Assembly: GCF_001883705.2 (NCBI RefSeq)
Contig: NZ_MDEQ02000009.1
Coordinates: 1 to 64,000, forward strand
Source of the DNA: Burkholderia catarinensis
GTDB lineage: Bacteria; Pseudomonadota; Gammaproteobacteria; Burkholderiales; Burkholderiaceae
DNA: 64,000 nt
Direction: 5' to 3'
In this document: one piece after another, positions 19,953-51,465 of the stretch
Position numbering within the stretch: position 1 is the first letter of the stretch
Layout: each line of letters starts with the position of its first letter
Position numbers and translations under genes: made by a program
The notes under the pieces: generated by a model
Told to the model about the DNA's origin: nothing
The model's input: only the letters and a program-made list of their open reading frames with translations
Database searches by the model: none

Positions 19953-20542
19953 GGGAACAGTTTAGGTCGCTGGGAGAGCACTCACGATAAGACTATTTAT
20001 CGCAAACCTCCTGAAGGAACATCCACCCAATGTCACGTTTCGCGTGCTCGGCAGCACGCCGAGTCCTATGATGCGATGGCTCTCACATGAGGGAACGTCT
20101 TGCGTCGTGGAAAACATTAAGATTCTGACCGAGCCGGAGCGCCGCTCGGAGCGTATGGGCCGAAAAAACCGTGGAAGCACCGGTTCTCGCCGCCTCAGCC
20201 GCGGCCTACCGCAGTGGAACGAACACAGCTCGTGGTGTGACCTGATGCCGTGTCCAACTAACGTAGACGTACGGTTGGTATACGTCGATGGCTTTGACCT
20301 GTCAGAGAGAGCTGAAAGTGCGTATTTACGGGATGGCCGAGGCGCAGACAGTAGCAGTCGTATGGATTAGTGACCTCCGGTCGTTCATCCATTTGCCGCA
20401 AGCGCTGTTTGATGTGATGCGAGAGAAATTGGCGCATAACGGCAAGGGGCGTTTGATGCTGGATACAGGTGGTGCGATTGGATGTTGGAGCAGGGGGGGG
20501 GCGATGACGGGAATTGGGATTGTGGACGAAACAGGAGTGGCG
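19953..20542. other. Intergenic stretch between integrase and MBL gene
   Basis: About 590 bp. It holds the 10-mer ATAAGACTAT (19987), a GC-rich inverted repeat near 20128-20148 (GAGCCGGAGCGCCGCTCGG) and a G9 run near 20490. The open frame before 20543 lacks a ribosome site and was left out. Confidence 0.4.
19987..19996 (+). repeat. Direct repeat ATAAGACTAT, copy 1
   Basis: Ten bases repeated exactly at 22793-22802. This copy is 35 bp upstream of the integrase start; the other is 34 bp after the MBL gene. It is possibly a recombinase site, but the length is marginal. Confidence 0.35.
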
Positions 20543-29962: not shown

Positions 29963-30002
29963 TTTATGTTCCTGGTTTGTAATCGTGTCATGCGAGGAAA
30001 TA

Positions 30003-31625: not shown

Positions 31626-31693
31626 TTTGTTTTCGATGAATGGCTGAATTAATGTGACTTTAAATCATTATCAATATCTTAAATGTGGTGATG

Positions 31694-33058
31694 ATGACGA
31701 TTTATCTAGATCAACCTCTTCCAGATGAGATTCTGTTTAGTGTCGTTGCGAGATATATCGAACGGGAGCGTATAATATATACGAGTTCATTTCTGAAGAG
31801 ATTAATGGGGGGCGAGTCACGGTTTGATACATCGGCCGAGTTTGGTCATTTAGCAGCAGAGACAGAGCGAACGTGGGGCATGAGTGCGGATCAGATCACG
31901 GAGCGGCTCACGTTGCTACCGTTCTACTCTTCGCTCTTTCCCGGTGCTTCTCGCATAGGAGTCGTGCGACAGGTGCTGCAAGGTACGCGATGGTTGGGCT
32001 ACCTCGCACCGGGTCGGCCGAGGATCAGATACTGCGAGGCTTGCTGGCGTGACGACGATCAAAGCGGAGATCCCCGCTATTGGAGGCGCGCTCATCAGCT
32101 TCCGGGCGTGGCTGTATGTCCCTGGCACGGCGACGTGCTATACAGCGCAAGTCAATCTCCTACCCACCGTCTGATGGTTTCTGCAGCCAGAAGCGTAGGT
32201 GGCCGTCCCATCGCCGCGCCCTCCACGCGTGAAAGGGAGGCATGGCAACAGGTTGCACGGCTCGCATATCGACAGCTGTGCGGTGAGAATCTCTGGGAAA
32301 ATTTGGAATCGAGTAATAGACGTATGGAGATGGCGCGTCGATGCGCGTACCTTGCTGTCGGAGGTATCGATAGTAGACGGATGAGAGAGGACCTGGTTGT
32401 CCGTCTGGGCGAAGAGTATTTCGATTTATTTACTTCAAAAAGCGGTATTACGATTCCACTAGAACGCGCTGTGCTGACTGATCAAGAAATGGGTTCGCCT
32501 TGTTGTGCATTATGGGTAGACTATTTGCTTACAGACATTAGCACACGGACGATACGTGATATCAACCCTGACTGTCCGGGAAGTCGTTCTCATCGGGATT
32601 TTAATCATTGCGTGGTGCCGTGGTCGAGCCGTGAAGGCCGTCCGCACTATCTTTGCATCTGCGGTTTTTCTTTTTTCCTGACGCAGGGTGAGCGGGGCGT
32701 GTCAATCTCTCCGACGCAGGATGGACGTGATGTAGCGTTGGCGATCGTGATGCTGACCGCTAAATCGTATGCCACCTCGACGCTTGTAGCGATGCTCGGT
32801 GTACCACCTTTCATGGTCGATTCAGCGAGAAATCGACAAATTATCATCCGTGATTGGGACCGTACAACTGAACGCGCGAGGCGGTTAGTACGGTGGATTG
32901 ATCTTGTTAACCACTATGGCGATCCAGATATCGCGTATAAAAAGCGCGCGCATAAATATCATGATCTTGGACGGCTCGCCAATATCCTACCGCAAGCGGT
33001 GACGCCGAAGAATGGGATGATCATTGATGAACATCGGAGAGGTAGAGGAGAGCGCTAG
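31694..33058 (+). CDS. TnsD/TniQ-family target selector 1
   Basis: 455 residues. The N-terminus (MTIYLDQPLPDEILFSVVARY) and the CCCH zinc finger (RYCEACW with Cys114/Cys117, then AHQLPGVAVCPWH) match TnsD/TniQ proteins, which recognise an attachment site or link to another targeting factor and recruit TnsC. Tn7 TnsD has 508 residues, so this is slightly short. A second Cys-rich segment near 295-325 (DCPGSRSHR, LCICGF) resembles the repeat modules of the neighbouring TniQ protein. The start at 31694 is chosen by alignment with that neighbour; no good ribosome site is visible. It lies about 70 bp after tnsC. Confidence 0.82.
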   Translation: MTIYLDQPLPDEILFSVVARYIERERIIYTSSFLKRLMGGESRFDTSAEFGHLAAETERTWGMSADQITERLTLLPFYSSLFPGASRIGVVRQVLQGTRWLGYLAPGRPRIRYCEACWRDDDQSGDPRYWRRAHQLPGVAVCPWHGDVLYSASQSPTHRLMVSAARSVGGRPIAAPSTREREAWQQVARLAYRQLCGENLWENLESSNRRMEMARRCAYLAVGGIDSRRMREDLVVRLGEEYFDLFTSKSGITIPLERAVLTDQEMGSPCCALWVDYLLTDISTRTIRDINPDCPGSRSHRDFNHCVVPWSSREGRPHYLCICGFSFFLTQGERGVSISPTQDGRDVALAIVMLTAKSYATSTLVAMLGVPPFMVDSARNRQIIIRDWDRTTERARRLVRWIDLVNHYGDPDIAYKKRAHKYHDLGRLANILPQAVTPKNGMIIDEHRRGRGER

Positions 33059-33134
33059 ACAAGCATCAAAGTGAGACATCAACGACATCAGAGTCGCACT
33101 TTTACATGGCAGTCTGAAATCGTGGAGGACATGT

Positions 33135-34730
33135 ATGGCGACATATTTGGATGAGCCGCTAGATGATGAGCCGCTGTTTAGTATTGTGGCGAGATATATT
33201 CAAAGTTCCATTGTATCCAGAAAGAAAGATCTCCTGAAGCGGCTCTTCGGGGTGGAACGCATTGTTGCAAATACCGCACTGATTGCACAGGAAACATACG
33301 CATCCTGGGGATTGTCTGCGCAAGAAGTGGCAAAGCGCATGACGATGTATCCGTATTTTGCGGCGTTCTTGTCGCCAGCTCAAGCGCACAAATGGCTTGA
33401 GCGTATTGCGAGTACAAACCATATACCACAAGGAAAAGACAGAAGAGGAGTTAAACTCGATGGGGAGTGTGACCGACATCGCTACTGTCGTTCCTGCTTT
33501 CGAGAAAACATCCAATCGGGAGACCCATTACATTGGAGGCGAACTCACCAGTTGCCAGGTGTGATCTTCTGCGTTCGACATCAGGAGTTGCTCTATGAAT
33601 GGGAATATACACACTTCCTCCATAAAGTTGTTGCGGCAGGTCAAGTCGAAGGGGAACGTATTTCAATCGAAGCGACGGAGCGACAAAGATCTGCGCTGTT
33701 GGCGATAGCGAAAATATCGGATGATGTCCTGAATGAGAGGGTTTCATTCGAATCAGAGAATTTTGTTCGCAGATTTAGAAAGTATCTTTTCTCGAAGTCC
33801 CGATATTTTTTTGGGGAGCGGTACGATCAATGCGTTGCTCGACTCGTCGAGCGCACGTTCGGAGCAATGTATGTCAGAAAATATAATGTTGATCTTAGGC
33901 AAGCACATTTCAGGAAAATCAGAGGTGTGAGCGCTATGACTGCGCTTCGTGTTATCACTGCGGCTGCCTTGGTCACGCAGATTGAAGAGGATGAGACGTT
34001 AGTTGATGATACGCATTTTTCCGACCTCTTTGATAATGTTCCATCCGATTTGATTCGAAAAAAGGGGGTGCGGCTTGGGCCCATTGGTCCGCATCCATCG
34101 TCAACTTGCCCCAGCAAATTGGCCAGCCACGGGACCGGACATGCTATTAAGCATTGGCATCGCAGGACAGGCACTTATCGCGGTCAATGCAATTGCGGTA
34201 TGGCAATAACATACACACTGGGCGTTGACGGCGAACCCATGATCAGGATCATAGATTGGGGCGAGCCATACAAGAGGGAGGTGATAAGGCTTGCGCGAAA
34301 AGGGGAAAATATAAAATCGATTTCAATTAAACTTGGAATTTCTCGGTCGACGGTAAAGAAAATTATAGTGAAAGCTGGGATTGAATGGCGAACGAGGGCG
34401 TCGGTTGCCCCAAGCATGAGGAATCCAAATGTAAGATTAAGCATCGAATGCCCGAGCGTTGTCGCATCGCACGGTCGTGGCCACGAAATAGACCATGTGC
34501 GGTGGAAGAAAGGGCGATACCACGGTCGGTGTGAATGTGGGTTGAAGGTCGTTTGCAAAGGTTTGCCCAATGGGGAGTATGTTTTTAGAGTTTCTTTGTG
34601 GGGTGATTTGTATGATCGAGAGGTGTGGAGATTGATTGGTCTTGGTTTTTCCAGAAATGAAATCGCTACTAAAATGAATGTACCAATTCATATTGTTGAT
34701 AGCTGCAAGAGGAAATATAAGCATCTATGA
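33135..34730 (+). CDS. TnsD/TniQ-family target selector 2, with tandem Zn-finger/HTH repeats
   Basis: 531 residues, related to the protein before it: the same N-terminus (MATYLDEPLDDEPLFSIVAR) and zinc finger (RYCRSCF, then THQLPGVIFCVRH). It differs at the C-terminus, which consists of two copies of a module of about 100 residues. Each has a CPS...HWHRR/RWKKG...CNCG/CECG putative zinc site followed by a helix-turn-helix beginning WGxxYxREVxRL. The copies start near residues 322 and 438. Such repeats suggest sequence-specific DNA reading, perhaps of an attachment site. The gene has its own ribosome site (GGAGGAC) 77 bp after the first TniQ gene. Confidence 0.8.
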   Translation: MATYLDEPLDDEPLFSIVARYIQSSIVSRKKDLLKRLFGVERIVANTALIAQETYASWGLSAQEVAKRMTMYPYFAAFLSPAQAHKWLERIASTNHIPQGKDRRGVKLDGECDRHRYCRSCFRENIQSGDPLHWRRTHQLPGVIFCVRHQELLYEWEYTHFLHKVVAAGQVEGERISIEATERQRSALLAIAKISDDVLNERVSFESENFVRRFRKYLFSKSRYFFGERYDQCVARLVERTFGAMYVRKYNVDLRQAHFRKIRGVSAMTALRVITAAALVTQIEEDETLVDDTHFSDLFDNVPSDLIRKKGVRLGPIGPHPSSTCPSKLASHGTGHAIKHWHRRTGTYRGQCNCGMAITYTLGVDGEPMIRIIDWGEPYKREVIRLARKGENIKSISIKLGISRSTVKKIIVKAGIEWRTRASVAPSMRNPNVRLSIECPSVVASHGRGHEIDHVRWKKGRYHGRCECGLKVVCKGLPNGEYVFRVSLWGDLYDREVWRLIGLGFSRNEIATKMNVPIHIVDSCKRKYKHL

Positions 34731-37023: not shown

Positions 37024-37164
37024 ATGTCAGAGAAACGGGTACCGAGAAGGCAGTACACGCAGGAATTCAAGATGGAGGCGGTCCGGTTGGCCGAGAGCGT
37101 CGGTCAGCATGAGGCTGCTCGCAGGCTGGGCGTGCCGGTCCACACTGGGGAACTGGTGCCGTGA
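37024..37164 (+). pseudogene. IS3-family OrfA remnant
   Basis: Starts MSEKRVPRRQYTQEFKMEAV and continues RLAESVGQHEAARRLGVPV, the helix-turn-helix start of an IS3-type OrfA. A frameshift or deletion follows at once (GVPVHTGELV before a stop). No OrfB or terminal repeat remains. Confidence 0.7.
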
Positions 37165-37885: not shown

Positions 37886-39082
37886 ATGCACGACACAACG
37901 CATCGCTATGACGTCATCGTTGTCGGTGGAGGGCCCATGGGCCTGTCGACCGCCTACCATCTCGGCAAGCGCAAGGCCAGGACGCTGGTGCTCGAGCAGT
38001 TCACCTTCGTGAACCAGCTTGGCAGCTCGGCTGGCGTGTCGCGCCAGTTCCGCATTCCCTATCCCGACGCCTACATGGTCAAGCTGGTCAAGCAGTCGAT
38101 CCCCTATTGGGACGAGTTGCAAGGCTTGACGCCGCAGCCGCTCATGGACACGGTCGGCACCTTGTGGTTCGGCGATCCGTCAGTCAAGTCGACAGAGGGC
38201 AATATCCCCGCCGCCGAGCAAGCGCTGAAGGCCGAAGGGGTTGCCTATGAAACGCTGGATGCGCGTGAATTGGAGAGGCGTTTTCACTTTCGCAATCTGC
38301 CGTCGACGTATACGGGACTCTTTCAGGCCCAGGGCGCCAGCATCGATCTCGCGGCCACGCAGCAGACGCTGCTCGACTGGAATCAGCGCTCTCCCTTCGT
38401 GCAGCTGTTGCAGGAGGCGCCGGTCATCGGCATCGAGCGTCGGCAGGGCCTCTTCGAAGTGAAGACTCCGCTTGGGACCTTCACTGCCGAAAAGCTGGTG
38501 CTGACGCCGGGCCCCTATGCCGACGACGTGTTCAAGCTGCTGGGGTTCCGTATCGCGGCGACCTACTGGAATATGGCCTCGGCCTACTACCGCAAGACTC
38601 GGCCGGATATCCAGTACCCCACCTGGTTCGTGTTCCAGAACCCGGTGGGCGACAACGGCAATCAGTTCTACGGCTTCCCGGAGGTAGCCTGGAATTACCC
38701 AGGCTATATCCGTGTCGCCTCCGATTTCGTCCTCGCGCCGCTGACGTCCCCCGATCAGCGCACGCCCGTTCCGAATCCTCAGGAGCTCGCGTTCACGGCC
38801 GAGTGGGTCGGCGAGCATATGGATGGTCTCGAGCCGGTTCCGCGCTTCACGTCGACCTGCCTCGTTGCACTCAGCAAGATTGCGAACAAGGAATTGCTGA
38901 TCGACTTCGCGCCCGACTATGTGCCGAGCCACCGCGACATCGTCGTCTATGCGACCGGCTGGGCCGGAAAGTTCGTTCCGCTGCTAGGCGAAATTCTTTG
39001 CCAGTTGACCCTGGACGGTCATACCCCATTCGATATCTCACACTTCTCCACCGGTAGTCGCTATTTCAACAAGCTGGCCTGA
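37886..39082 (+). CDS. Sarcosine oxidase/N-methyltryptophan oxidase-like FAD protein (DAO family)
   Basis: 398 residues. An FAD-binding Rossmann motif opens the protein (YDVIVVGGGPMGLSTAYHLG), and the MSOX-type loop GSSAGVSRQFR follows. Cys in RFTSTCLVALS lies where monomeric sarcosine oxidase attaches FAD covalently, and the C-terminal ATGWAGKFVPLLGEIL corresponds to the second FAD-contact segment. It therefore probably oxidises a secondary amine or N-methyl amino acid, releasing hydrogen peroxide. The ATG at 37886 follows TGGAG. It is the first gene of a plus-strand cluster and lies 33 bp before the L-amino-acid-oxidase-like gene. Confidence 0.8.
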   Translation: MHDTTHRYDVIVVGGGPMGLSTAYHLGKRKARTLVLEQFTFVNQLGSSAGVSRQFRIPYPDAYMVKLVKQSIPYWDELQGLTPQPLMDTVGTLWFGDPSVKSTEGNIPAAEQALKAEGVAYETLDARELERRFHFRNLPSTYTGLFQAQGASIDLAATQQTLLDWNQRSPFVQLLQEAPVIGIERRQGLFEVKTPLGTFTAEKLVLTPGPYADDVFKLLGFRIAATYWNMASAYYRKTRPDIQYPTWFVFQNPVGDNGNQFYGFPEVAWNYPGYIRVASDFVLAPLTSPDQRTPVPNPQELAFTAEWVGEHMDGLEPVPRFTSTCLVALSKIANKELLIDFAPDYVPSHRDIVVYATGWAGKFVPLLGEILCQLTLDGHTPFDISHFSTGSRYFNKLA

Positions 39083-39115
39083 GCACAGGCCGCGCATCTA
39101 CGGGAGCAGGACACC

Positions 39116-41107
39116 ATGGCAAGCAAGACCTATTCGATCTTCGGGTGTGGTGCCGCCGGTCTGTACACGGCCTGGCGACTGTTGAATGGCCGGACGCGAG
39201 CGGGGGGCGATCCGCATCGGCAGTTGGAGCAGGGCGATGTCCTGGAACTCTTCGACTGGGGCAAGTACGATTTTTCGAAGGAATTTCGGGGCACCCGTGC
39301 ACCCGGTGCCCGGGTCTGCACCTGGCACTACCAGGACAATCCCAACCATTCGTACCTCGAGTTGGGCGGCATGCGCTATTCGCAATGGAACGGCAAAAAC
39401 GACGGTAAAGCGCAGGGCCACCGGCTGGTCACGACGGTGATCGCCCAGCTCGGGCTCGACCGCTATGCCGTACCTTTCAACGAATCGAGCAATCCCCTCT
39501 ACTACCTGCGTGCCAGGAATCTCTATCAAAGCGATATTTCTTCGCGCACGCCGGCGCCGTACGCGGCCAACAACTTTGGTGCCGCGACCACGCCCGACCA
39601 GGGCTTCGCCGTCGTCGAAGCGTTGTCGGTCACGAGCACCAGTGGTCCGAGCACACGCAAGCAGTGGGACGCGTTTTATCAGCATGGCCGCATCACGGCC
39701 GAACTGCCGTCGAGCTCCATCTTCCAGAAAGGCGATTTGCTCAAGGACATCGGCTATTGGAACCTGATGTATGACCAGCTCGGCTCGGAAGGCTATCAGT
39801 ACGCCGCAGACGGCAACGGATACTCGTCCAACGTGATCAACTGGAATGCCGCGGTCGCCTTCGAGGCGAACAACGAATTCACGCCGGGCAATCAGTACAT
39901 GACGCTGACGACCGGCTACTCGGGCATGTTTCACGCATTGTTTGCGGCCATCGAGCAGTTGGCGAGGCAGCGAGGCGTCACGCTTCAGTATTACCCGAAC
40001 CGGCGGCTGCGCTCTATCCATGTCGAGAACGGCGTCGTCCATTACACGATCGCGACGCGGGAAGATCCCTACCGGGAGGCTGCCCGTCAGGTCACGGCGG
40101 CTGCCTGGCTGGCCATGCCGCGCGCGGCGCTCGAACAGGTTGCCCAGGGCTCCCGCTATGACGATCGGGGCGGACTGGACGTCCTGAACGACCAGAAGGT
40201 CAAGCTCTATCTCGAGTCGGCCATCATGCAGCCGTCTTACAAGGTCGGCATGTTCTTCGAGAAGGAATGGTGGCTGGACCCGGCTACGCCTTATCCGCCA
40301 AAGATCAACGGCTATGAAGTCACGGACGCCGTGATCGCGTCGCTCGAGGAGCAGGACTTTCCGCCAGTGTTCGTGCAGGCGATGTCCGGTTCGGACACGA
40401 TCCTGAATGTCCAGTTCGCGAGCGCCGACGAGCTGGTCAAGGCCGTGGAAGAAGCGGCCGGCGAGCGGATGACCGTCAAACAGGAAACGTTGCTGCTCGC
40501 CGTCGCAACGCGCAACACCATGGGACCGAGCGTGACCGACACGCCGATCCGCATGGTGGTCTACTTCGGCAACAACGCGGCCGACAAGGATGCAAAGCCG
40601 GTCTACGGCCTGCTGGCTTCCTACGACGACGAAACCTTCACGACGTTTTGGCGCGAGTTGGAGCTCGGGCCGGAGGAAGAGCGGCATGTGCCGATCGCCG
40701 ATGATATCCAACCCCTGATCGGGCCGCGCAAGGTGCCCGACCGAATGGTCAAGATGCTGCGAAAGCAGTTGGCGGAATTGCACTTTGGGCCGAACTCGGA
40801 CTTTGCGGACGTGCCCGAGCCGCTCGATGCGGCCTATGTCGACTGGTCGCTGCCGCCGTTCCGTGCGGGCTACCATGCGTGGGCCGCGCACTACGATGTT
40901 GCTGACGTCCAGCAAAAAATACGCAAGCCGTCGCAGCTGATCGACGGCAAGGATGCGCCCATCTTTATCGTAGGGGAGTGCTACTCAAACGATCAGGCTT
41001 GGGTGGAAGGCGCCTATTGCACGGCGGAATCGGTGCTCAACGATTTCTTCGACATCGAGCCGTTGATTGATGATTCCGAATACCCGTTCATCTGCCAGCC
41101 AACCTGA
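39116..41107 (+). CDS. L-amino-acid-oxidase-like flavoprotein
   Basis: 663 residues with an N-terminal FAD motif (YSIFGCGAAGLYTAWRLL) and the layout of a flavin amine oxidase: LGGMRYSQWNG is the GG-doublet substrate region, and SQLIDGKDAPIFIVGECYS with WVEGAYCTAES is the C-terminal FAD segment. The length matches large L-amino acid oxidases such as L-lysine alpha-oxidase. Such enzymes make the imino or keto acid plus peroxide. Ribosome site GGGAGCAGG lies before 39116. In violacein and rebeccamycin pathways an enzyme of this class (VioA, RebO) supplies an imine to a VioB/RebD partner; a ferritin-like VioB-type gene follows here. Confidence 0.78.
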   Translation: MASKTYSIFGCGAAGLYTAWRLLNGRTRAGGDPHRQLEQGDVLELFDWGKYDFSKEFRGTRAPGARVCTWHYQDNPNHSYLELGGMRYSQWNGKNDGKAQGHRLVTTVIAQLGLDRYAVPFNESSNPLYYLRARNLYQSDISSRTPAPYAANNFGAATTPDQGFAVVEALSVTSTSGPSTRKQWDAFYQHGRITAELPSSSIFQKGDLLKDIGYWNLMYDQLGSEGYQYAADGNGYSSNVINWNAAVAFEANNEFTPGNQYMTLTTGYSGMFHALFAAIEQLARQRGVTLQYYPNRRLRSIHVENGVVHYTIATREDPYREAARQVTAAAWLAMPRAALEQVAQGSRYDDRGGLDVLNDQKVKLYLESAIMQPSYKVGMFFEKEWWLDPATPYPPKINGYEVTDAVIASLEEQDFPPVFVQAMSGSDTILNVQFASADELVKAVEEAAGERMTVKQETLLLAVATRNTMGPSVTDTPIRMVVYFGNNAADKDAKPVYGLLASYDDETFTTFWRELELGPEEERHVPIADDIQPLIGPRKVPDRMVKMLRKQLAELHFGPNSDFADVPEPLDAAYVDWSLPPFRAGYHAWAAHYDVADVQQKIRKPSQLIDGKDAPIFIVGECYSNDQAWVEGAYCTAESVLNDFFDIEPLIDDSEYPFICQPT

Positions 41108-41175
41108 TTGTTCGGCGCATGCGGTCGCAGTTGAACGTGCCGCGGATCGCTACGGAGAGCTGGAGCCGGGAAAGA

Positions 41176-41207
41176 CGAGCGGGCGGGTTCGGTGACGCGC
41201 CCGCTCG
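41176..41207 (+). terminator. GC-rich hairpin between the oxidase genes and the ferritin-like gene
   Basis: CGAGCGGGCG and CGCCCGCTCG form a perfect 10-bp stem with a 12-base loop in the 214-bp gap after the amino-acid-oxidase-like gene. There is no U-run. It may partly separate the first two genes from the following five. Confidence 0.4.
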
Positions 41208-41321
41208 AACGACCGCGCGGCTAGTCGAGAGACGTTTGGCGCGCATCAATACCGAATTACCAGCCATTCCCTGTAGTGCTGCACGACCCTCTTTTTCTGA
41301 CGCAGGTAATAAGGAGCGGCA

Positions 41322-42851
41322 ATGCAATCTCTCAGACTGTGGCGGCATCTCGCGCCCGGCGGTTCATCCCTGGAGCGGCTTGCGCTTGGCGAGCCGGACG
41401 CCGGAGACGCTTCCATCAAGCATGTGCTCAACCATGAGCTATCGACGCGCGACTACGTCACCTATCTGCTGTCCATCGACGCGGAAATCGAGCATTGCCT
41501 GATGGTGCAGTATCTGTACGCCGGCTATTCGCTGGGCGGGCCGCAGGTGCCGGAGGCGTTTCGCGACACGGTCCGCAATTGGCAGGAAACCATTCTCGGC
41601 ATCGCCAAGGAGGAGATGGGCCACCTGATCACGGTGCAGAACGTGCTGCGCCTGATCGGCTCGCCCTTGCATTTCGAGCGTGACGATTACCCGTGGGATA
41701 CGCCGTTCTATCCGTTCCCTTTCATGCTCGAACCGCTGACGCTGGATTCGCTCGCGAAATACGTCTATACGGAGGCGCCGCTCGATTGGGACGGCGGCGA
41801 GCTGGGCAAGGATATCCGCCGGCGCGTCGGCGAGCAGGCCTCCGAGCCTCATAAGGTCGCCGAGCTGTTTCATACGCTGATTCCGCTCGTCAGGGACCAC
41901 CTGCCCGATGATGTGTTCCAGGCCGACACCTACCGATGCCAGGCGGATTTCGCCGAATGGGGACGCGGGTACAAGGGCGGCCACAGGGGCAGCGGCGGCG
42001 GTCGCTCGCTAGGCGGAACGCCGGACGTGCTCGTGATGCCCGCCACCTCGCGCGACGACGCGGTGAACGCGCTGGATAAAATCTCCAAGCAAGGGGAGGC
42101 GCCCCACGGCAAGGATCCCTCGCATTTCGTGCGCTTCTTGCGGATCTATGTCGAGATGCTTGCGGTCCTCGAAGGCGAGCTGTGCGGCCTCGACATCTGG
42201 CTTGCCGCACGCCCCGACGATTTTCTCGAAGAAGCCTGGACGGAAGCCTATCCGGCAGCGGCGGCCGAGCTGCACGCGGCGAAGGTAGACGACACCTGGC
42301 GGCCTTCGCGGCCCGTCGCGGTCAATCCCTACGTGGCGCTCGACCCCGAGCTCGAGCCGGAGCAGGGCGGCGCACCCGTGACGCCCATCACCGAGCCGGT
42401 GACCCAGCTGTGGGCGTCGCTGTTCAACCTGCGCTACCGCATGCTGCTGCAGTACCTGATCCACAGCTTCACGCTCTACGGCGGGCTCAATGCGGCCGGG
42501 CAGTTCACGCCGCGCGGCACGATCGTCAATGCGGCGTTCGGCGAGATGTACAACCTGCGCGCGCTCTCGGAGATCCTGATGCAGTCGCGCGTGTCGATTG
42601 AGCCGGACGCGTCGCTCGCGGGGCCGCCGTTCCAGATGCCCTATACGCTCAACAGCCCGTTCGGTGAGGCAAACCGCTGGCGCGGGCACCTCGATCTGCT
42701 CGCGGCCTCGGAGAACCTCGTGGTGGCCTTGCTGGCCGAGACCGATGCCGCACGCCATCCGTATTTGCTCAGTCTGCGCGAAGCCGACAGGAACCTGGCC
42801 GCCGTCGCCAGGCGCATCCTGTCCGGCGACGTCGACCTGGCGCTACTCTAG
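41322..42851 (+). CDS. VioB-type ferritin-like protein (iminophenyl-pyruvate dimer synthase family domain)
   Basis: 509 residues. The N-terminal half is a ferritin-like four-helix bundle of the kind found at the C-terminus of VioB/RebD: IDAEIEHCLMVQYLYAGYSL, then AKEEMGHLITVQNVL and SPLHFERDDYPW. The Glu and ExxH residues suit a di-metal site. The C-terminal half (LRYRMLLQYLIHSFTLYGGL, FGEMYNLRALSEILM) forms another helical region also seen in these proteins. The VioB N-terminal half is missing, so this is not a full dimer synthase. The ribosome site AAGGAG precedes the ATG. It is 9 bp from the next gene and probably in one operon with it. Confidence 0.75.
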   Translation: MQSLRLWRHLAPGGSSLERLALGEPDAGDASIKHVLNHELSTRDYVTYLLSIDAEIEHCLMVQYLYAGYSLGGPQVPEAFRDTVRNWQETILGIAKEEMGHLITVQNVLRLIGSPLHFERDDYPWDTPFYPFPFMLEPLTLDSLAKYVYTEAPLDWDGGELGKDIRRRVGEQASEPHKVAELFHTLIPLVRDHLPDDVFQADTYRCQADFAEWGRGYKGGHRGSGGGRSLGGTPDVLVMPATSRDDAVNALDKISKQGEAPHGKDPSHFVRFLRIYVEMLAVLEGELCGLDIWLAARPDDFLEEAWTEAYPAAAAELHAAKVDDTWRPSRPVAVNPYVALDPELEPEQGGAPVTPITEPVTQLWASLFNLRYRMLLQYLIHSFTLYGGLNAAGQFTPRGTIVNAAFGEMYNLRALSEILMQSRVSIEPDASLAGPPFQMPYTLNSPFGEANRWRGHLDLLAASENLVVALLAETDAARHPYLLSLREADRNLAAVARRILSGDVDLALL

Positions 42852-42860
42852 GAGCCGTAC

Positions 42861-44300
42861 ATGCCGATACTGGAACTCCGGATTTTGCCGCCCATCGCGG
42901 TCGGCAGGCTGGGCGCCGCGGCGACGCCGCTGGAAGCGTTCGACCTCGTCGTTGATCCCGACAACCCGCTCGACTTTCGACGCATCGTGCCGCGCACCAC
43001 GCTGGAGGTGGATCCCGAAAGCGGCGAGATCGTGAAGGCCTATGTGCCCGACACGATTCGCTTCAAGGACGAGAACAAGAAGGTGCGGCCTGTCGCGCCT
43101 TTTCTCGAAGTGTTTGCGCGCACGAGCGAGGCGCCCGATACGCTGCAGCCGCTCACGCTGCAATTGCTCGCGGCGGAACAACTCGATCTCGACGCGCTGC
43201 ATTGGGATATCCATCTGGGCAACATCAAGATATATCGCCGCACCAACGACACGAACGACAAGATCCATGCGAACCTGACCGGCCTCAAGGATCACAAGCG
43301 GCACGCGATGCACGGCCATTGCGAGCACTTTCGCCCGGGGCGGCCTCTTCCGCTCGGCCACGTCCAGTTCATCAAGCCGACGGCGCAGTTCCCCGAGATC
43401 CGCCTGCGCTACACCCCTGCCGCCGGTCTCGTGTACGGGACGCGGCTGGTGCGCCGCACCTCGGACGACGAACGCGAAGACGAGTTGAAGCTCGATCCCG
43501 TCATCGATCGCGACCATCTCCTGCTCTACGCCGAGACGCCGGGCAAGTGGCTCGGCTTCAGGGAGGCGGGCGGCCCCACGAAGGCGCATCCTGCGCCGAC
43601 CAACCCCGCGCAGATTTTTGCCGGATACACCGACAAGGATGGCAATCAAGTCAGTTGGGGCTATCTCGACGACGAATGCGATGGCCATGTGCAAGTCGTG
43701 CTGACGAGGAAGGACGGCTCCACGCTGCGCGCGCACGGCTATATCGGCGCCGGGCCGCCGGCCTATGCGCCCGATACCATGCCGGTGCGCGTGGTGTCCG
43801 ACGAGATGGAGCAGATTCTCCACGGCATCGACGTCCCGGAAGAAGAGCGCGTATCGATCGACGAAGCCACGGAGATCGTCCTGCGTGCGCTTGAAACGAT
43901 CCGCCTCATGAACACCGCCGTCATGAACGGCAACCCGATCAACGGAAGGCTCAACGTCGCGAGCACGATGGTGCGGCAGAACACGGCCGACTTCGAGCGC
44001 TATTACGAGCCGATCGCCGCCGAATCGATCGTCGACAATCTCGCGCTGCGTGCGCTGCACGAGCGCGTGTTCAGCACGCTGGCGGCGGGTGGCGCGCCGT
44101 GGTTCGCCAAGCTGCTGCGCCAGCCCGAGGACATCGGCGACCTGACCGCCGAGGGCTTGCGCAAGATGCCGGCCCTGATGCGCGGGGCGGATGGCCGTAG
44201 CCTGACGCTCACGCGCCGCCACATCAACCTTGTGATCAAGGCGGCGCGAGACGCGATGTTCGGGCAACCTGATCCGAAGGGAGACAAGCATGTCGGCTAA
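42861..44300 (+). CDS. LodA-like oxidase, N-terminal part (split gene)
   Basis: 479 residues corresponding to the N-terminal two thirds of LodA, the L-lysine epsilon-oxidase of Marinomonas with the cysteine tryptophylquinone cofactor. Matching segments include LRILPPIAVGRLG at the start and WGYLDDECDGHVQVVLTRKD followed by GAGPPAYAPDTMPV, which align with the YDDISDG and GSPDFAPE regions of LodA. The cofactor residues are not here but in the next gene. The stop falls just past the next gene's start (11-bp overlap, different frame). GGAG precedes its ATG. LodA-type enzymes oxidise primary amines of amino acids and release peroxide; the substrate here is unknown. Confidence 0.78.
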   Translation: MPILELRILPPIAVGRLGAAATPLEAFDLVVDPDNPLDFRRIVPRTTLEVDPESGEIVKAYVPDTIRFKDENKKVRPVAPFLEVFARTSEAPDTLQPLTLQLLAAEQLDLDALHWDIHLGNIKIYRRTNDTNDKIHANLTGLKDHKRHAMHGHCEHFRPGRPLPLGHVQFIKPTAQFPEIRLRYTPAAGLVYGTRLVRRTSDDEREDELKLDPVIDRDHLLLYAETPGKWLGFREAGGPTKAHPAPTNPAQIFAGYTDKDGNQVSWGYLDDECDGHVQVVLTRKDGSTLRAHGYIGAGPPAYAPDTMPVRVVSDEMEQILHGIDVPEEERVSIDEATEIVLRALETIRLMNTAVMNGNPINGRLNVASTMVRQNTADFERYYEPIAAESIVDNLALRALHERVFSTLAAGGAPWFAKLLRQPEDIGDLTAEGLRKMPALMRGADGRSLTLTRRHINLVIKAARDAMFGQPDPKGDKHVG

Positions 44301-45153
44301 CGATCCGAACGTTCCGAAAGACCTCGAGCAGCCCGGCAACGGGGAGATCCGCGCGTCCAACCTGACCGCGCAGATTCACCATCGCGGCGTGGGCAACCCG
44401 GCCTCGGCGCTGCCGCGCACCGCGATTTCGAATTGCTTCCCGGGCCTGGAGTTCGATTTCCGCAATCTCTGGCGGCGCGCATTCGTAGGCATCACGCTGG
44501 TCGAGAACAACAACTACGTCGTCGATGCGGAGCCGGGCTACGAGCATCTCAAGTCGCGCCGCCTGCTGAGCTTCGACGGCCACAAGGTCGGCACGATGGT
44601 CCTCACGAAAGGGCCGGTGCTGCCTGGCGGGGATCCTGTCACGCTGGTGAGCAAGCCCAATCCCCATGCGGTGTCGTTCATGGAGTGGTCGAACTCCATC
44701 GCTCGCATCGTGCATTTGCAGGGCCAGTCGGTCGAATGCGAATTCACGGCTCACGAGAACGCCCTGGAAGAGGTGTATTACCACCAAGGCAAAACCGAGA
44801 CCCTGAAGGCGACGCTCACGCTGAGGCGCTTTTTCGAGGGCGACACCGCCAGCTTCAACCTCGAGATGCTGAAGCCGGGCGAGCTGACGCAAGGCCTCTG
44901 CGCGCCCTGGCAGAACGACTATCGCGAATGCGCGTGCTACTACTGGGCCGCGTCGCGACCTGACTTCGTCAATGTCGAGCCGGGCGACGACGGGCTGGCG
45001 CGCGGCGACATGTGGCTCTCCAAGCGCCGCACGGGCACGTACGTGCCGGACAATCGCGTCGACACGCGGTTGTGGTCCTACGACGATCTGTTCCGGTCCT
45101 GGCAGGAGGATCTGCAGTTCGTGATCCGCGGCAAGGATGCCGATGAAACCTGA
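44290..45153 (+). CDS. LodA-like oxidase, C-terminal part with CTQ residues (split gene)
   Basis: 287 residues corresponding to the LodA C-terminal region. ISNCFPGLEFDFR aligns with the LodA IGNC...PGIEMTW segment, and PGELTQGLCAPWQNDYREC with PGDLTKRMACPWQADFFNC. By this alignment Cys214 and Trp219 (CYYWAASRPDFV) are the pair that forms the cysteine tryptophylquinone. In LodA the two are 65 residues apart (Cys516, Trp581); here they are five apart because an intervening loop is absent. The gene has its own GGGAG ribosome site inside the preceding gene, which argues for a true two-subunit enzyme rather than a simple frameshift. Confidence 0.78.
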   Translation: MSANDPNVPKDLEQPGNGEIRASNLTAQIHHRGVGNPASALPRTAISNCFPGLEFDFRNLWRRAFVGITLVENNNYVVDAEPGYEHLKSRRLLSFDGHKVGTMVLTKGPVLPGGDPVTLVSKPNPHAVSFMEWSNSIARIVHLQGQSVECEFTAHENALEEVYYHQGKTETLKATLTLRRFFEGDTASFNLEMLKPGELTQGLCAPWQNDYRECACYYWAASRPDFVNVEPGDDGLARGDMWLSKRRTGTYVPDNRVDTRLWSYDDLFRSWQEDLQFVIRGKDADET

Positions 45154-46570
45154 CCCCACCGTCGAGCCGCGCGCGGCGGCGCGGCTCGCGCCGCTGGCGT
45201 CGGCGATGGCGGCGCGCATCGTCGAGGCGTCGCGCCCGCGGCATCCCGGGATCCACGTGGTCGAGGATCCGGAGGGCGCGCAACTGTTGCTCGTGAACGG
45301 AAGCCGCCTGTTTCATGTGCCGCACGACCTGCGTGACGCGTTTCAGGCGGCGCTCGAGGACGGGGATGCGCAGGCCGTCGCCTCGCTGGTCGCGAGCCGC
45401 GGGCTCGACATGCGCCCGGCGATCGACGACGAGCCTTTGACCGAGATGCCGGTGCACGCGTTGTCGCTTGCCGTCGCGCAGAAATGCAATCTCGGCTGCA
45501 CCTATTGCTACGCCCAGCAAGGGGAATTTGGCGGCAAGGCGAAGAACATGCCGCTCGAAACCGCGCTTGCGGCAGTCGACCTGCTGATCGAGCAGGCGAG
45601 CGAGGGCGGCAAGATCAATCTTGCATTCATGGGCGGTGAGCCGCTCGCCAATCGCGCGGTGCTGCGCGCGGCGACTGTCCACGCGCGGGAGCGCGCCGAC
45701 GCCCGCGGAATCCGATGCCAATTTTCCGTGACGACGAACGGCAGTCTGCTGCAGGAAGACGACGGGGCGTTCTTCGAAGAGCACGGCTTCGCTGTCACCG
45801 TCAGCCTCGACGGCCCCGCGCCCGTGCATGACCGCTTGCGTCCGTTCAAGGGCGGCATGGGCTCGTTCGATCACATCGTCGAGCGCGTGACGCCGTTGCT
45901 TGCGCGCCAGCGGCGCATGCAGGTCTCGGCGCGCGTGACCGTCACGCCGTTCAATCTCGACTTGCCGAGCACGCTCGATACTTTCGTCGACATGGGGTTC
46001 CACAGCGTCGGCTTCTCGCCACTGCTGCGCGCTTCGAACGGCCGCGCGGAAATGGGCCCGGACGATATGGCAGACATGCTGCAAGGGATGATCGCCTGCG
46101 GGCTCGCGTTCGAGCAAAAGGTCATGCGCGGCGATCGCTACCCGTTCTCGAACATGCAGAACGCGCTGCGCGAAATCCAGCGCGGCACGCATCGGCCGTA
46201 TCCGTGCGGCGCAGGGGCGGGGTATTTCGGCGTCTCCGCCGATGGCGAGCTCGCGGCGTGTCACCGCTTCGTCGGCGACGAGGCCGGCGTCATGGGGCAT
46301 CTCTCCACGGGCGTCGATCAGGCGCGCCAGACGATCTGGCTCGCCGAGCGTCACGTGCACAAGCAACAGCCCTGCAATGCATGCTGGGCGCGCTATCTTT
46401 GCGGCGGCGGATGCCATCACGAGGTCCTCGAGCGCGGACGCAGCGCCTGCGATTACATCCGCGGCTGGCTGCACTATGCGATCGGCGCGCACGGCAGGCT
46501 CGCGCGCTATGCGCCGGCCTGGTTTGCCGGTTCGCCTGGCGCGTCGTCCAGTGGTGCGGGAACGGCGTGA
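45143..46570 (+). CDS. Radical SAM/SPASM protein, probable peptide or cofactor maturase
   Basis: 475 residues. A PqqD-like N-terminal region (about 25-95; VVEDPEGAQLLLVNGSRLFH) precedes the radical SAM core with Cys115, Cys119 and Cys122 (CNLGCTYC) and FMGGEPL. The SPASM domain supplies two auxiliary iron-sulphur clusters (YPCGAGAGYFG, LAACHRF, CNACWARYLCGGGCHHEV, ACDYIRGW). Such enzymes form thioether or other crosslinks in peptides, for example QhpD in quinohemoprotein amine dehydrogenase. It overlaps the LodA-like C-terminal gene by 11 bp; an ATG six bases upstream is also possible. Known LodA operons need only LodB, so this enzyme is an unexpected partner. Confidence 0.82.
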   Translation: MKPDPTVEPRAAARLAPLASAMAARIVEASRPRHPGIHVVEDPEGAQLLLVNGSRLFHVPHDLRDAFQAALEDGDAQAVASLVASRGLDMRPAIDDEPLTEMPVHALSLAVAQKCNLGCTYCYAQQGEFGGKAKNMPLETALAAVDLLIEQASEGGKINLAFMGGEPLANRAVLRAATVHARERADARGIRCQFSVTTNGSLLQEDDGAFFEEHGFAVTVSLDGPAPVHDRLRPFKGGMGSFDHIVERVTPLLARQRRMQVSARVTVTPFNLDLPSTLDTFVDMGFHSVGFSPLLRASNGRAEMGPDDMADMLQGMIACGLAFEQKVMRGDRYPFSNMQNALREIQRGTHRPYPCGAGAGYFGVSADGELAACHRFVGDEAGVMGHLSTGVDQARQTIWLAERHVHKQQPCNACWARYLCGGGCHHEVLERGRSACDYIRGWLHYAIGAHGRLARYAPAWFAGSPGASSSGAGTA

Positions 46571-48081
46571 ATCGCACGTTCGACATGCTCGTGACCGGCG
46601 CCGGTCCCGCTGGCCTGTGCGTGGCGCTTCGCTTGAATCATCTCGGGCATCGCGTGCTGCTCGTCGAGCGAAGTCCGCTATGGCCTCGTCCGCAGATCGG
46701 GGAAGCGCTGACGCCGGGTGTCAGAAACATCATCGACTACCTCGACGCGGACGAGGTGCTCGAATCCGTTCCCATCCTCGCAGGCAAGCCCACGAGCGTA
46801 CGTTGGACGAGCGAATCGATCGAGACGGTGGCGCACGACGGCGCCGTCGTGGAGCGTGCCGCATTCGATGCGGCGCTGCTGCGCTTGGCCGTGGCGCGCG
46901 GCGTGGAAGTGCTGCGGCCGGCGAGCCTCGCGCAAGTCGACGGAGCGCCCGGTGCCTGGCGCGTGCAAATCGCTACGCCCGATGGGCTGCGGAACGTCGA
47001 GGCGCACGTGCTGCTCGATGCCCAGGGCCGGCAGAGCCGGCGCGAGCCGCAGCGCTTGCACGCGCCTCGGTTGTCCACGGTATGGGCCGAAGCCGCGATG
47101 GAAACACCGGCTGCGCATGCCGATGCCGCCACGCGCGTGGAAGCGCTCGATGACGGATGGATGTGGGGCGCTGCGCTGCCGGGCGGCCGTTACCGCGTGA
47201 TGTTCACGTTCGATCCCTCCGCGCGGGACGACGCGCTCAAACGCGAGCCGGAGTCTGTCTTGCGCAACGCCTGCACGCGAAGCGCCTTGTTCAAGGACAT
47301 GGCAGGTTTGCCTTGGTGCGAATCGCCGCGCATGTGCGTATCGACGCCCTACGTCGACGCGCTCTCCTGGCAGGACGGACGCATCAAGCTCGGCGACGCG
47401 GCCTTCGCGCTCGACCCGATCTCGTCCTCGGGCGTCGAGAAGGCGATGCGCTTCTCGCTCCAGGCCGCTATCGCGATCAACACGTGGTGCCGGGCAAGCG
47501 ATGCCTCGGAGCGCGAACTGGCGCAGCGCTTTTACGAATCGCGCCTGATCGAAAGCGCGGCGCGTCACCTCGCATGGACCGCCGGGTACTACCGTCAGGC
47601 ATGGTGCGCCGATTCGCCTTTCTGGCGCCTGCGCTCGACGCCCGCATTGACGTCCGATACGGTTGCGACGTCCTCGCTCGGCGACGAAACCGCGGCGCGC
47701 GTAGACCTCATGACGCACGCGCTGCAAGACGAATTGGCGCACGTGCCGTCGAACCAGCCCCAGCCCAGCGAGCCCGCGCCTCCGTTGCCCTTGCACAGTC
47801 CGATCCGCTTCGCCCGCAATATCGGCATTGTCGTGGTGCCTTGCGCGACCGGCGACCGCGTCACCGCGCATCCCGCCTTGCAGCATCCGAGTCTTGATCG
47901 ACCCGTCGCGTTCTGGAATGGCGTGGCGCTGTTTCCGCTCCTCGACATGCTGACGCGGGCAACGCATCCGCTCGAGCTGATTGCGTTTCTCGGCAGATCG
48001 ATGGAAGCGGCCAGGGCGCAACAGCTGCTCGAATGGCTGTGGAGCAAGCAAATGGTCGAGCCCGCTGTCTTCGGCGCGTGA
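46567..48081 (+). CDS. LodB/QhpG-like FAD-dependent maturation enzyme
   Basis: 504 residues starting at GTG, which overlaps the radical SAM stop as GTGA. It belongs to the tryptophan-halogenase/flavin monooxygenase fold: GAGPAGLCVALRLNHLGHRV at the N-terminus, PQIGEALTPG, and the second FAD motif DGRIKLGDAAFALDPISSSG. LodB and GoxB, proteins of this class, are needed for CTQ formation in LodA and GoxA, and QhpG hydroxylates the Trp precursor in quinohemoprotein amine dehydrogenase. A role in tryptophylquinone formation on Trp219 of the LodA-like subunit is therefore likely. The last 100 residues (about 400-504) are an extra region not typical of the fold. Confidence 0.8.
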   Translation: MNRTFDMLVTGAGPAGLCVALRLNHLGHRVLLVERSPLWPRPQIGEALTPGVRNIIDYLDADEVLESVPILAGKPTSVRWTSESIETVAHDGAVVERAAFDAALLRLAVARGVEVLRPASLAQVDGAPGAWRVQIATPDGLRNVEAHVLLDAQGRQSRREPQRLHAPRLSTVWAEAAMETPAAHADAATRVEALDDGWMWGAALPGGRYRVMFTFDPSARDDALKREPESVLRNACTRSALFKDMAGLPWCESPRMCVSTPYVDALSWQDGRIKLGDAAFALDPISSSGVEKAMRFSLQAAIAINTWCRASDASERELAQRFYESRLIESAARHLAWTAGYYRQAWCADSPFWRLRSTPALTSDTVATSSLGDETAARVDLMTHALQDELAHVPSNQPQPSEPAPPLPLHSPIRFARNIGIVVVPCATGDRVTAHPALQHPSLDRPVAFWNGVALFPLLDMLTRATHPLELIAFLGRSMEAARAQQLLEWLWSKQMVEPAVFGA

Positions 48082-48503: not shown

Positions 48504-49748
48504 TCACGGATGTTCGATGGCCACGAGCGCGTCGAACGCGTCGGCTTTCGGAAACTCCGCCCACGATTCCGGTCCCGCCTCGATTTCTTCCACCGTCAGC
48601 AGGCACGCATCGAGTTCGCGCCGCAACCGTCCGTGATCGATTGACTGCCCGATGAACACGATTTCCTGCCGGCAATCGCCGACCGGCTCCACCCATTTTT
48701 CCAGCACGCCGGCGCGGCGATAGTCGTCGCGTGGCCAGTCCGACTGCGGCACGAATCGCCACCAGCGGCCGACGTAGCCCCACTGGAACCGGCCCCCCGT
48801 CTGCACGAGCATGCCGATCTCCTGATGGCGGTGCGCAGCCCACGCATAGCCTTTGCAGCGAAGTAGCCGGCCGTTGGTCCACGGCCGCCGCAGCCATGCG
48901 AGCAGGCGCGCCGGATGAAACGGCGCACGTTCGCGATAGACCCACGATCCGATTCCGTATGTGTCGGATTCTGACGGTCGTTTGTCGACCTGCATGTGCC
49001 GCATCCATCCCGGGGATTCGACGAGCGCCGACAAATCAAAGCGCCGGGTATCGAGCACGTCCGACGGATCGATTTCACCATCATGCATCGGCAGAATCCG
49101 CGCGGATGGATTCAACGACGCGAGCACCGCGCGCAGCCTGTCGAAACCCACATCGCCGATCCGATCGAATCGGCTGACGAGGACGACGTTCGCATACTCG
49201 ACCTGTTCGATCAGCAGGTCCGACAGCTTGCGTGGCTGCCCGGTTTCACTTCCGTTCGAGGTCAGTTCTTTCGACGTGATCATGCCCTCGAACGTCTCGC
49301 CGTTGACTACCGTGACGAGCGTATCGAGCCGCGCGAGTTCGCTGAGGCTGAAGCCGTCGCGATCGAGGAACGCGAACGTTTCCGCGACCGGCATAGGCTC
49401 CGAGATTCCAGTCGACTCGATCAACAGGTAATCGAAGCGCTGCTGTCGCGCGAGCGTGCTTACCTGATCGAGAAGATCGGCGCGCAGCGTGCAACAGATG
49501 CAGCCGTTGCTCATCTCGACCAGCTCGTCCACGCCGCGATGCAGCTCGACGTTGCGTCGCACATCGTCGGCGTCGACGTTCACTTCGCTCATGTCGTTGA
49601 CGATCACGGCAACCTTCCGGCCGGCGCGATTGCGCAGGATGTAATTCAGCAGCGTCGTCTTCCCGGCGCCGAGGAACCCGGACAGTACCGTCACCGGAAT
49701 CCGCGCCGGTGGGTCGGCCAGCGCGGGTTGATTCGCCACCGCATTCAT
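48504..49748 (-). CDS. Nitrile hydratase activator, COG0523/CobW-type GTPase
   Basis: G3E-family GTPase of 414 residues that delivers metal (iron) to the nitrile hydratase. It has Walker [15 protein letters not shown], the COG0523 metal motif [11 protein letters not shown] (CxCC) and the guanine-specificity region VSRFDRIG, followed by a CobW C-terminal domain with [14 protein letters not shown]. Its size of about 45 kDa matches the activators linked to Fe-type nitrile hydratases. Its ATG overlaps the beta-subunit stop (ATGA), so the two are translationally coupled. It is last in the leftward operon. Confidence 0.87.
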
Positions 49749-50398
49749 GCGCGCGTCTCCGGCGCGCGATCCAGGTAGCCTTCGAACAGGTCGGCCACGA
49801 CGTAACCGTCGTCGGCGGCGTCACCCCAGAGATCCCTCACGCGGAATTCGACGTGATAGGTCGGCTGATGCGCGGCGCCGGTGTCGCCGTGGCCGATCGC
49901 GTCCGGGAACGGCCACGATTCGGTCGTCCGGTGCAGCACGACGCCTGCCTTTCCTCGCACGTAGCCCGGTGCTCGGATGTGTCCGCTCACGTATTCGTCG
50001 CGCACGACGACGCGATCGCCGACCTCGAACCGCATCGGGCCGACAGGCGCCGCTCGGCCGACGGAATGCGACTGGTTCGCGAGCCGGAAGTGCGAACCGA
50101 GCGCGCGGTCGAGTTCGTCCTGCGTCAGCACGCCGGTTTCGACGAGCAGCGTCGCGGTCGCGATCACGTAGCGCTCGTAGTAGCGCGTGCCGACATGCTG
50201 GCGCACGTCGATCCGTTCGACCGCGTGACGCACTTCGTCGACGCTGAACTTTTTCAATTGATCGACACCGACGAACATCAAGCTGTATGCGAGATGTTCC
50301 CAGTCTTCCTTGAAGACCGGCTTGTAGCCGAGGCTGTTGATCGTGTGCGGCACCCGGCCGAAGCCCTGGAATCCGCCGAGGTCGTGAAAGCCGTCCAT
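49745..50398 (-). CDS. nthB: Nitrile hydratase beta subunit
   Basis: 217 residues beginning [20 protein letters not shown], the classic nitrile hydratase beta start. The helical N-terminal region and C-terminal SH3-like barrel ([20 protein letters not shown], then [13 protein letters not shown] and [12 protein letters not shown]) are complete. It pairs with the alpha subunit, whose gene ends 44 bp upstream. The open frame continues far upstream through the alpha gene in another frame; that part is not coding. Together the two subunits hydrate nitriles to amides. Confidence 0.92.
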
Positions 50399-50442
50399 CT
50401 GTGATCTCCGAAATGAAGGTCGATAAGGGAATGCGGCGCGGA

Positions 50443-51042
50443 TCAGCTCGCGCGCGGTAGCGCGACGCCGATCAGCACGTCCTTCGTGACAAGCGTTCGC
50501 AGTTGTTCCTCGGTCATGTGCTCGGTGCCGACCGGACGCACTGGCAGCACCAGGTAGCGGCTTTCGGCCGTCGTGTCCCAGACCTTCACGACGACGTCGT
50601 TGGGCAAGTCGGTACCGAGTTCGCGCAGCACCGTGCGCCCCTCGCGGACGAGCCGCGCGCGGTATTCGAAACCCTTGTACCACTCGGGCGGCAGCCCAAG
50701 CACCGGCCAGTTCGTGCACGAGCACAGGCTGCAGACGATCACGTTCTTCAGCGTCGGCGTATCTTCGAGCGCGACGATGTATTCGCCCTGCGGGCCGGTG
50801 TAGCCGAACTGCGCACACGCGGCGGTACCGTCCTTCAACAGCAGCTCGCGAAACCCCGGATCGGCCCATGCGCGCGCGACGATCCGCGCGCCGTTGGCCG
50901 GGTCCCAGGTCGTCGACATCAGTTCCGTCAGGCCTTCGATATAGCCGTCCGGGATCAGGTTTTTCTCTTTCATCACGCGAAACAGCGCCCAGGCGCGTTC
51001 GCCGGGCGTCGATGCTGTTTCTGCAGAGTGGTTCGCGCTCAT
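50443..51042 (-). CDS. nthA: Nitrile hydratase alpha subunit, Fe type
   Basis: 199 residues carrying the metal-binding claw VCSLCSCT: Cys104, Cys107, Ser108, Cys109. Thr at the last position marks the iron type; cobalt enzymes have CTLCSCY. The surrounding NWPVLGLPPEWYKGFEYRAR and the C-terminal region are typical. The two outer claw cysteines (Cys107 and Cys109 equivalents) are normally oxidised to sulfinic and sulfenic acid. The ATG at 51042 follows ACGAGGAG; the longer frame to 51126 adds an Arg/Thr-rich extension with no support. It is the first gene of the leftward operon and divergent from the transporter gene. Confidence 0.92.
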   Translation of the reverse strand: MSANHSAETASTPGERAWALFRVMKEKNLIPDGYIEGLTELMSTTWDPANGARIVARAWADPGFRELLLKDGTAACAQFGYTGPQGEYIVALEDTPTLKNVIVCSLCSCTNWPVLGLPPEWYKGFEYRARLVREGRTVLRELGTDLPNDVVVKVWDTTAESRYLVLPVRPVGTEHMTEEQLRTLVTKDVLIGVALPRAS

Positions 51043-51465
51043 CGTGGGGCTCCTCGTGGTGGTTCGGGTTGACCGCCGCCACGCCGCTGCTTCCCTGGCG
51101 GCGCGCGGACACGTCGTATCGGTCACGCTCGACGACTAGGGTAAGAAGAGAAAAAGCGCGGTTCTTTGCCGGCACGGATCGGAAACTGTGCTGAGACGGA
51201 TCCGACACCTGCCTTGTTGCGACTGTATGGCATCGGCAGCAGAGGCCCGCCCCAGCCAATTTCTTGTTCCGCCGGAAAACAGAATCGCGGATTTTGCCTC
51301 CCTATTCTCACCCTCAAGCGACGGCGGTTCGGTGTCGCGAATCGTCGGCGCACCAGATGCGCCGATGGATAACAGCGTGCAGCACACCACGACTCCGGCG
51401 TCCGGCAACGGCGCGCGTTCGTCGCACATCGGACGCGATGGTATCTGCGCATCCAGGCAAGGGGC
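51043..51465. promoter_or_regulatory. Divergent promoter region of the nitrile/aldoxime cluster
   Basis: 423 bp between two divergent operons. The AraC-family regulator encoded at 55.2-56.3 kb would be expected to act here. I could not pick out a convincing operator or promoter by eye. Confidence 0.4.

Follow-up and report, generated by a model that had tools for sequence, protein, structure and literature searches.

A LodA-type oxidase operon with QHNDH-type maturation genes in Burkholderia catarinensis suggests a type between two known families

Gene layout and surroundings

The window analyzed here is a 64,000-nucleotide stretch of Burkholderia catarinensis DNA (contig G000:C79 of an 8.2 Mb genome). 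An earlier sequence-only reading had called seven plus-strand genes in it as an oxidase cluster, and all seven are open at the coordinates that follow. Genes A (37886-39082), for a NikD-like flavin oxidase, and B (39116-41107), for an FAD L-amino-acid-oxidase-like protein, lie 33 bp apart and form a first block of local additions. After a gap of 214 bp comes a second block, the five-gene core C-D-E-F-G, which opens with a ferritin-like protein of family PF12902 (C, 41322-42851, 509 aa). The N-terminal part of a LodA-like oxidase (D, 42861-44300, 479 aa) and its C-terminal, cofactor-bearing part (E, 44290-45153, 287 aa) follow as separate genes, succeeded by a QhpD-like radical SAM/SPASM protein (F, 45137-46570, 477 aa) and a QhpG-type flavoprotein (G, 46567-48081, 504 aa, with a GTG start that we chose). 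From C to G, neighbors overlap or are 9 bp apart, confirming that the last five genes overlap or lie within 10 bp of one another. The wider description of all seven as almost end to end suits most of the genes but not the looser junction between B and C.

Upstream of the cluster, Tn7-like transposition genes occupy positions 27503-34730 and encode a Mu-transposase C-domain protein (27503-29962), a TniB-type ATPase (29925-31625), and two TniQ-family proteins (31685-33058 and 33135-34730), the second of which is also TnsD-like. By eye, a short ORF beginning near 37025 resembles the start of a transposase, and the oxidase cluster may lie within or beside a mobile island. Further upstream of the Tn7-like genes is an 823 aa protein with a metallo-β-lactamase-fold domain (20288-22759; PF00753, 27.9 bits). 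Directly downstream of the cluster, on the minus strand, are genes for the alpha and beta chains of a nitrile hydratase and a CobW-type GTPase (48504-51126).

Conservation of a five-gene core

We scanned one genome per species for relatives of protein E, using six peptide patterns, one of which lies inside the cofactor motif and so biases the search toward motif retention. This identified 125 relatives, the best 80 of which were analyzed. The order C-D-E-F-G, on one strand and with short gaps, is kept in 76 of these 80 loci, which span seven phyla (Bacteroidota, 37; Pseudomonadota, 30; Myxococcota, 5; Verrucomicrobiota, 3; Planctomycetota, 2; Actinomycetota, 2; and Acidobacteriota, 1). Four loci depart from it: L032, L070 (contig end), L059, and L072 (broken genes). 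All 80 contain D-like and E-like sequence, F and a G-like gene stand behind the LodA-like gene in 78, and F is immediately 3′ of E in 79, across seven phyla. Gene C, present in 78 of 80, is almost as constant as F and G. In L059, an Acidobacteriaceae contig, the radical SAM gene (187-1617) is located not behind E but some 5.5 kb upstream of the C-D-E genes, and the stretch yielded no G.

The closest relatives of protein E are from Burkholderia, at 95-98% in four loci. Of 398 evenly sampled genomes of the host phylum, three give matches to E, that of the host included; the other two are weak (E-values of 7.4e-5 and 9.8e-4), and one of them falls inside an ordinary LodA protein. The division of the LodA-like oxidase into two genes, as originally called, is real: D and E are split in 34 of the 80 loci and fused in 46, so the split is a lineage trait and no one-off sequencing error. 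One of the split cases, L072, carries other broken genes.

The sequence-only reading would have been refuted had the genes failed to co-occur in other genomes; the five-gene core does co-occur. Among the best 80 loci, A occurs in 5 and B in 8, and the full set of seven recurs in four further loci of Burkholderia and in one of Massilia sp. Root335 (L019). The conserved unit is thus five genes, not seven, and A and B are local additions. No extra neighbor of the core recurs widely, the most frequent neighbor family reaching at most 16 of 80 loci. In L042, a MacB/FtsX-type permease gene (L042:13923-16274) lies directly 3′ of the core; it is probably of the same family as a gene in seven other Chitinophagia loci.

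The oxidase, its cofactor segment, and the maturases

To place the structural protein, we compared D and E with LodA family models. Protein E passes the LodA_C cut-off (25.4 bits against 25), whereas D falls short of the LodA_N cut-off (15.5 against 26.3). Among 16 fused relatives, all match LodA_C at E-values up to 1 (the L022 protein, at 23.0, is barely under the cut-off of 25) and five match LodA_N at that threshold, the best at 4.1e-6. The protein passed a fold comparison as LodA/GoxA-like overall, with a structure model that is unreliable at residues 665-749, motif included (pLDDT <50). Because LodA_N scores below its cut-off, we file D/E as what appears to be a divergent branch, neither LodA nor GoxA proper. 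Many residues outside the cofactor motif are invariant in the family.

The cofactor segment of E (44899-44964, plus strand) reads L-C204-x-P-W-Q-N-D210-Y-R-E-C214-x-C216-Y-Y-W219-A-x-x-R-P-D225. Its motif, C-x5-D-x3-C-x-C-x2-W-x5-D, occurs in 80 of 80 loci, and all 81 of 81 sequences share the six named residues. The aligned stretch of LodA is M-A-C-P-W-Q-A-D-F-F-N-C, in which one cysteine stands one place after the C204 position and the last is C516, described as joined to Trp581 in the cysteine tryptophylquinone (CTQ) of LodA (PMC4417212). The corresponding stretch of the gamma subunit of quinohemoprotein amine dehydrogenase (QHNDH), for which four more copies were compared, is L-C27-Q-P-M-E-A-D33-L-Y-G-C37-S-D-P-C41-W-W43-P-A-Q-V-P-D49. 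According to the account in PMC7876137, the gamma subunit forms its CTQ from C37 and W43, and QhpD installs three Cys-to-Asp/Glu thioethers in it. Unprompted, HMMER pairs all six residues of E with C27, D33, C37, C41, W43, and D49, in a weak-scoring alignment with two spacings off by one: the CTQ Cys-Trp spacing is 5 in E and 6 in QHNDH gamma, and that of the second Cys-Asp pair is 9 and 8. We take two of the gamma-subunit thioethers to be C27-D33 and C41-D49, and the third to be C7-E16, which is without a clear counterpart in E.

As a motif score, the likeness is not significant. A search among 1521 ORFs gave E-values of 0.37-0.38 for three QhpC proteins and 3.8 for a fourth, ranking three above the first unrelated ORF and the fourth beneath several; the reverse search was non-discriminating, in that 27 of 52 matches belonged to the E family and the top matches did not. 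We base the comparison of E with QhpC on the register, the family-wide invariance, and the accompanying maturases instead. By this correspondence, C214 and W219 are the predicted CTQ residues, and C204-D210 and C216-D225 are predicted thioethers. E would thus be the cofactor part of a LodA-like body with QHNDH gamma cysteines, in an operon with QHNDH-like maturases, and such cysteines would be the simplest reason for the presence of F and a QhpG-type G.

Protein F carries the CxxxCxxC motif of radical SAM cluster ligands at residues 117-124 (45485-45508, plus strand). C117, C121, and C124 are conserved in 81 of 81 sequences, and eight further cysteines in 80 or 81 of 81. Against the QhpD model TIGR03906, F scores 323.5 bits, below the cut-off of 453 and above its PapB score of 259.4. 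Seven relatives of F score 298-350 bits, compared with 777-780 for true QhpD. QhpD is nonetheless the best family match in all eight F proteins examined, and the F clade lies near QhpD; F also scores against PapB, nif11, and SCIFF maturases. We propose on these family matches that F is a thioether-forming maturase that works like QhpD without being QhpD.

Gene G had been read as LodB/QhpG-like, and the second half of that label is the one to keep. G passes the QhpG model NF049967 (295.8 bits, cut-off 240, covering model positions 1-423) and fails the LodB and GoxB models (about 107 bits, cut-off 400). All six relatives of G examined also pass NF049967, at 285-327 bits and with the model covered to 411-423. 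By comparison, three of three LodB-type neighbors of ordinary LodA proteins fail it, stopping at 337-339; these three miss the cut-off of 400 too, yet their best match is LodB or GoxB. G is of QhpG type, not LodB type, and we propose it as the tryptophan hydroxylase of CTQ formation. QhpG is described as promoting the QhpD reaction and as inactive without QhpD (PMC7876137), a dependence that a tight coupling of F and G would fit. The same source gives a leader peptide on the substrate as a requirement of QhpD; where D and E are fused, the N terminus lies far from the motif.

The ferritin-like domain assigned to C stands (PF12902, 88.7 bits, cut-off 22.3), and its description as VioB-type does not: the VioB model TIGR04492 gave 18.9 bits over 66 residues, with a cut-off of 1250. 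C is probably a di-metal protein of ferritin fold. Its near constancy beside F and G leads us to lean toward a di-metal helper in maturation, a role in the use or removal of the product being equally possible.

For comparison, we used the ordinary LodA relatives of the host phylum. LodA_C occurs in 12 of the 398 sampled genomes, and all 12 ordinary relatives were taken with their flanks (13-16 kb each). At the C204 position they have Ala, Gly, or Ser in every case, none has Cys at the C216 position, and Asp at the D225 position is confined to L106 and L109. A G-like flavoprotein is present in all 12 stretches, a ferritin-like C was found in none of them, and F is in none of the 12 operons. One stretch, L098, has a weak radical SAM match (72.9 bits) 2.4 kb from the LodB-like gene on the other strand. 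The host genome itself holds one ordinary copy besides E (L105, G000:C2:394000-409000), with its own LodB-type flavoprotein. Another ordinary relative, L109:7482-9854, has a short Cys-Trp loop (SCNVAWWPVQRPD) as in E and keeps the final R-P-D, with neither extra cysteine and with no radical SAM gene in the 15 kb examined; L109 is a possible uncaged sister of the E family. On the QHNDH side, true QhpD scores above the cut-off in 4 of 299 genomes, each with an adjacent QhpC. QhpC (PF08992) is absent from the host genome by a search that was positive in four of four controls.

The core thus differs from LodA/LodB and GoxA/GoxB, the CTQ oxidases L-lysine ε-oxidase and glycine oxidase, in the extra C204 and C216, the short Cys-Trp loop, the addition of QhpD-like F and ferritin-like C to the operon, a maturase of QhpG rather than LodB type, and, in 34 of 80 loci, a body encoded by two genes. 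It resembles QHNDH (QhpABC, QhpD, and QhpG) in having QhpD-like and QhpG-type maturases in the core, and its Cys, Asp, and Trp pattern can be lined up, at a non-significant score, with that around the CTQ of the gamma subunit. It is unlike QHNDH in that a LodA-like protein carries the pattern, and by family matches the core contains no QhpA, QhpB, QhpC, QhpE, or QhpF. The view that known LodA/GoxA systems consist of the oxidase and one flavoprotein needs amending, given that PF12902 ferritin-like genes are already reported near five fungal lodA-like genes together with lodB-like genes (PMC4417212). In those fungal group V loci, as that paper describes them, LodA-like, LodB-like, and PF12902 genes lie near one another; the word "radical" does not appear in the paper's main text. 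In the open-licence literature we found no description of a LodA-type oxidase with QHNDH-type maturation, although subscription papers may hold one.

A proposed caged CTQ oxidase and competing readings

We consider it probable, at roughly 0.7, that the core C-G produces and matures a LodA/GoxA-type CTQ oxidase whose CTQ is caged by two Cys-Asp thioethers. From the gene order, conservation, family assignments, and motif correspondence described above, we infer the following chemistry. F would first install the C204-D210 and C216-D225 thioethers in E, G would then hydroxylate W219, and the hydroxylated W219 would join C214 to give CTQ, with D210 placed at the conserved active-site Asp of LodA and QHNDH. 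The mature D/E protein would oxidize a primary amine or amino acid and pass the electrons to O2. Reoxidation of the quinol by O2, giving H2O2, is probable because no core gene encodes a heme subunit. C would help in maturation or in the use of the product. Counting against this scheme are the non-significant QhpC score, the two shifted spacings, the missing counterpart of C7-E16, the LodA cysteine beside the C204 position, the scores of F below the QhpD cut-off and of D below that of LodA_N, and the leader peptide required by QhpD. A more complex cofactor, one of two options raised by the sequence-only reading, agrees with the anatomy of the locus, in which F and a G-like gene accompany the oxidase in 78 of 80 loci and the extra Cys and Asp residues align with QhpD cross-link places of QHNDH.

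The strongest competitor, although an unlikely one, also has F and G modify E, with F making some other bond (to a different acceptor carbon, between two carbons, or to other residues, for example those near C49) and the cofactor or its cage consequently differing from that of QHNDH. F's score below the QhpD cut-off, its matches to other maturases, the second-pair spacing that is off by one, and the conservation of C49 in 78 of 81 sequences would all be at home in such a scheme. Against it, QhpD is the best match of every F protein examined, and both Cys-Asp pairs are invariant and aligned with QHNDH gamma.

The other option raised earlier, a pathway of three successive oxidases (A, B, and D/E) sharing one substrate derived from an amino acid, strikes us as improbable, and for the core it is unsupported, since most loci have the same core without A or B. 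B could, for example, convert lysine to piperideine-2-carboxylate and A could convert this to picolinate. A does match NikD (269 bits) over sarcosine oxidase (83 bits), which corrects its earlier sarcosine-oxidase-like label; in nikkomycin synthesis, a sarcosine-oxidase-type enzyme is described as converting piperideine-2-carboxylate to picolinate (PMC4021061); and A and B, neighbors here, occur together in 5 of the 80 loci. B is closest to PDB 7x7i, an "FAD dependent enzyme" (559 bits), with 163-166 bits against ancestral L-Lys oxidase. At the position of E383 of that oxidase, which is reported to bind the lysine side chain (PMC8405998), the alignment gives B a Gln, if the Glu aligned with it is indeed E383; the arginine oxidase PT-AROD likewise has Gln there. 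This Gln speaks against plain lysine as the substrate. By their sequence families, A resembles NikD and B the FAD L-amino acid oxidases, and in a Massilia and some Burkholderia their product may be picolinate or a related compound; unlike those systems, they would here be additions to a CTQ-type core.

We give still less credence to a reading in which G alone matures an ordinary LodA-type oxidase, in the manner of LodA/LodB, and F is a chance neighbor acting on another protein. The absence of F from the operons of all 12 ordinary relatives and the ordinary copy in the host genome are compatible with such independence, but F directly behind E in 79 of 80 loci and seven phyla, and a G of QhpG type in seven of seven examined, are hard to reconcile with it. 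Very improbable, finally, is a non-enzymatic D/E precursor whose modified C terminus is excised and exported as a peptide: RiPP maturases are among the relatives of F and the Chitinophagia downstream family (eight loci, typed in L042 only) is probably a permease, but the LodA-like body is kept whole, with a LodA_C match in all 16 fused proteins and many invariant residues outside the motif, and no neighbor family exceeds 16 of 80 loci.

Beyond the caged oxidase itself, we put at a little under even odds the broader proposition that the core defines a third CTQ enzyme class, in which a LodA-type oxidase has a radical-SAM-made thioether cage and a new, dedicated maturation partner of di-metal ferritin fold, and that the clade is the missing intermediate linking LodA/GoxA and QHNDH gamma as one homologous cofactor module, with the L109 relative as its uncaged counterpart.

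Pairing a LodA-type oxidase with QHNDH-type maturation points to a new type that stands between the two established families. If the reading holds, it would unite two enzyme families so far regarded as separate routes to one protein-derived cofactor, and a QhpD-like enzyme would act within a large catalytic protein, not a small leader-bearing peptide. Bacteroidota such as Dyadobacter and Chitinophaga, which are not known to be pathogens, would become targets for new oxidase activity. Because predicted caged and uncaged versions share one fold, and in B. catarinensis even one genome, the family would also offer a natural experiment on the purpose of the thioether cage around CTQ.
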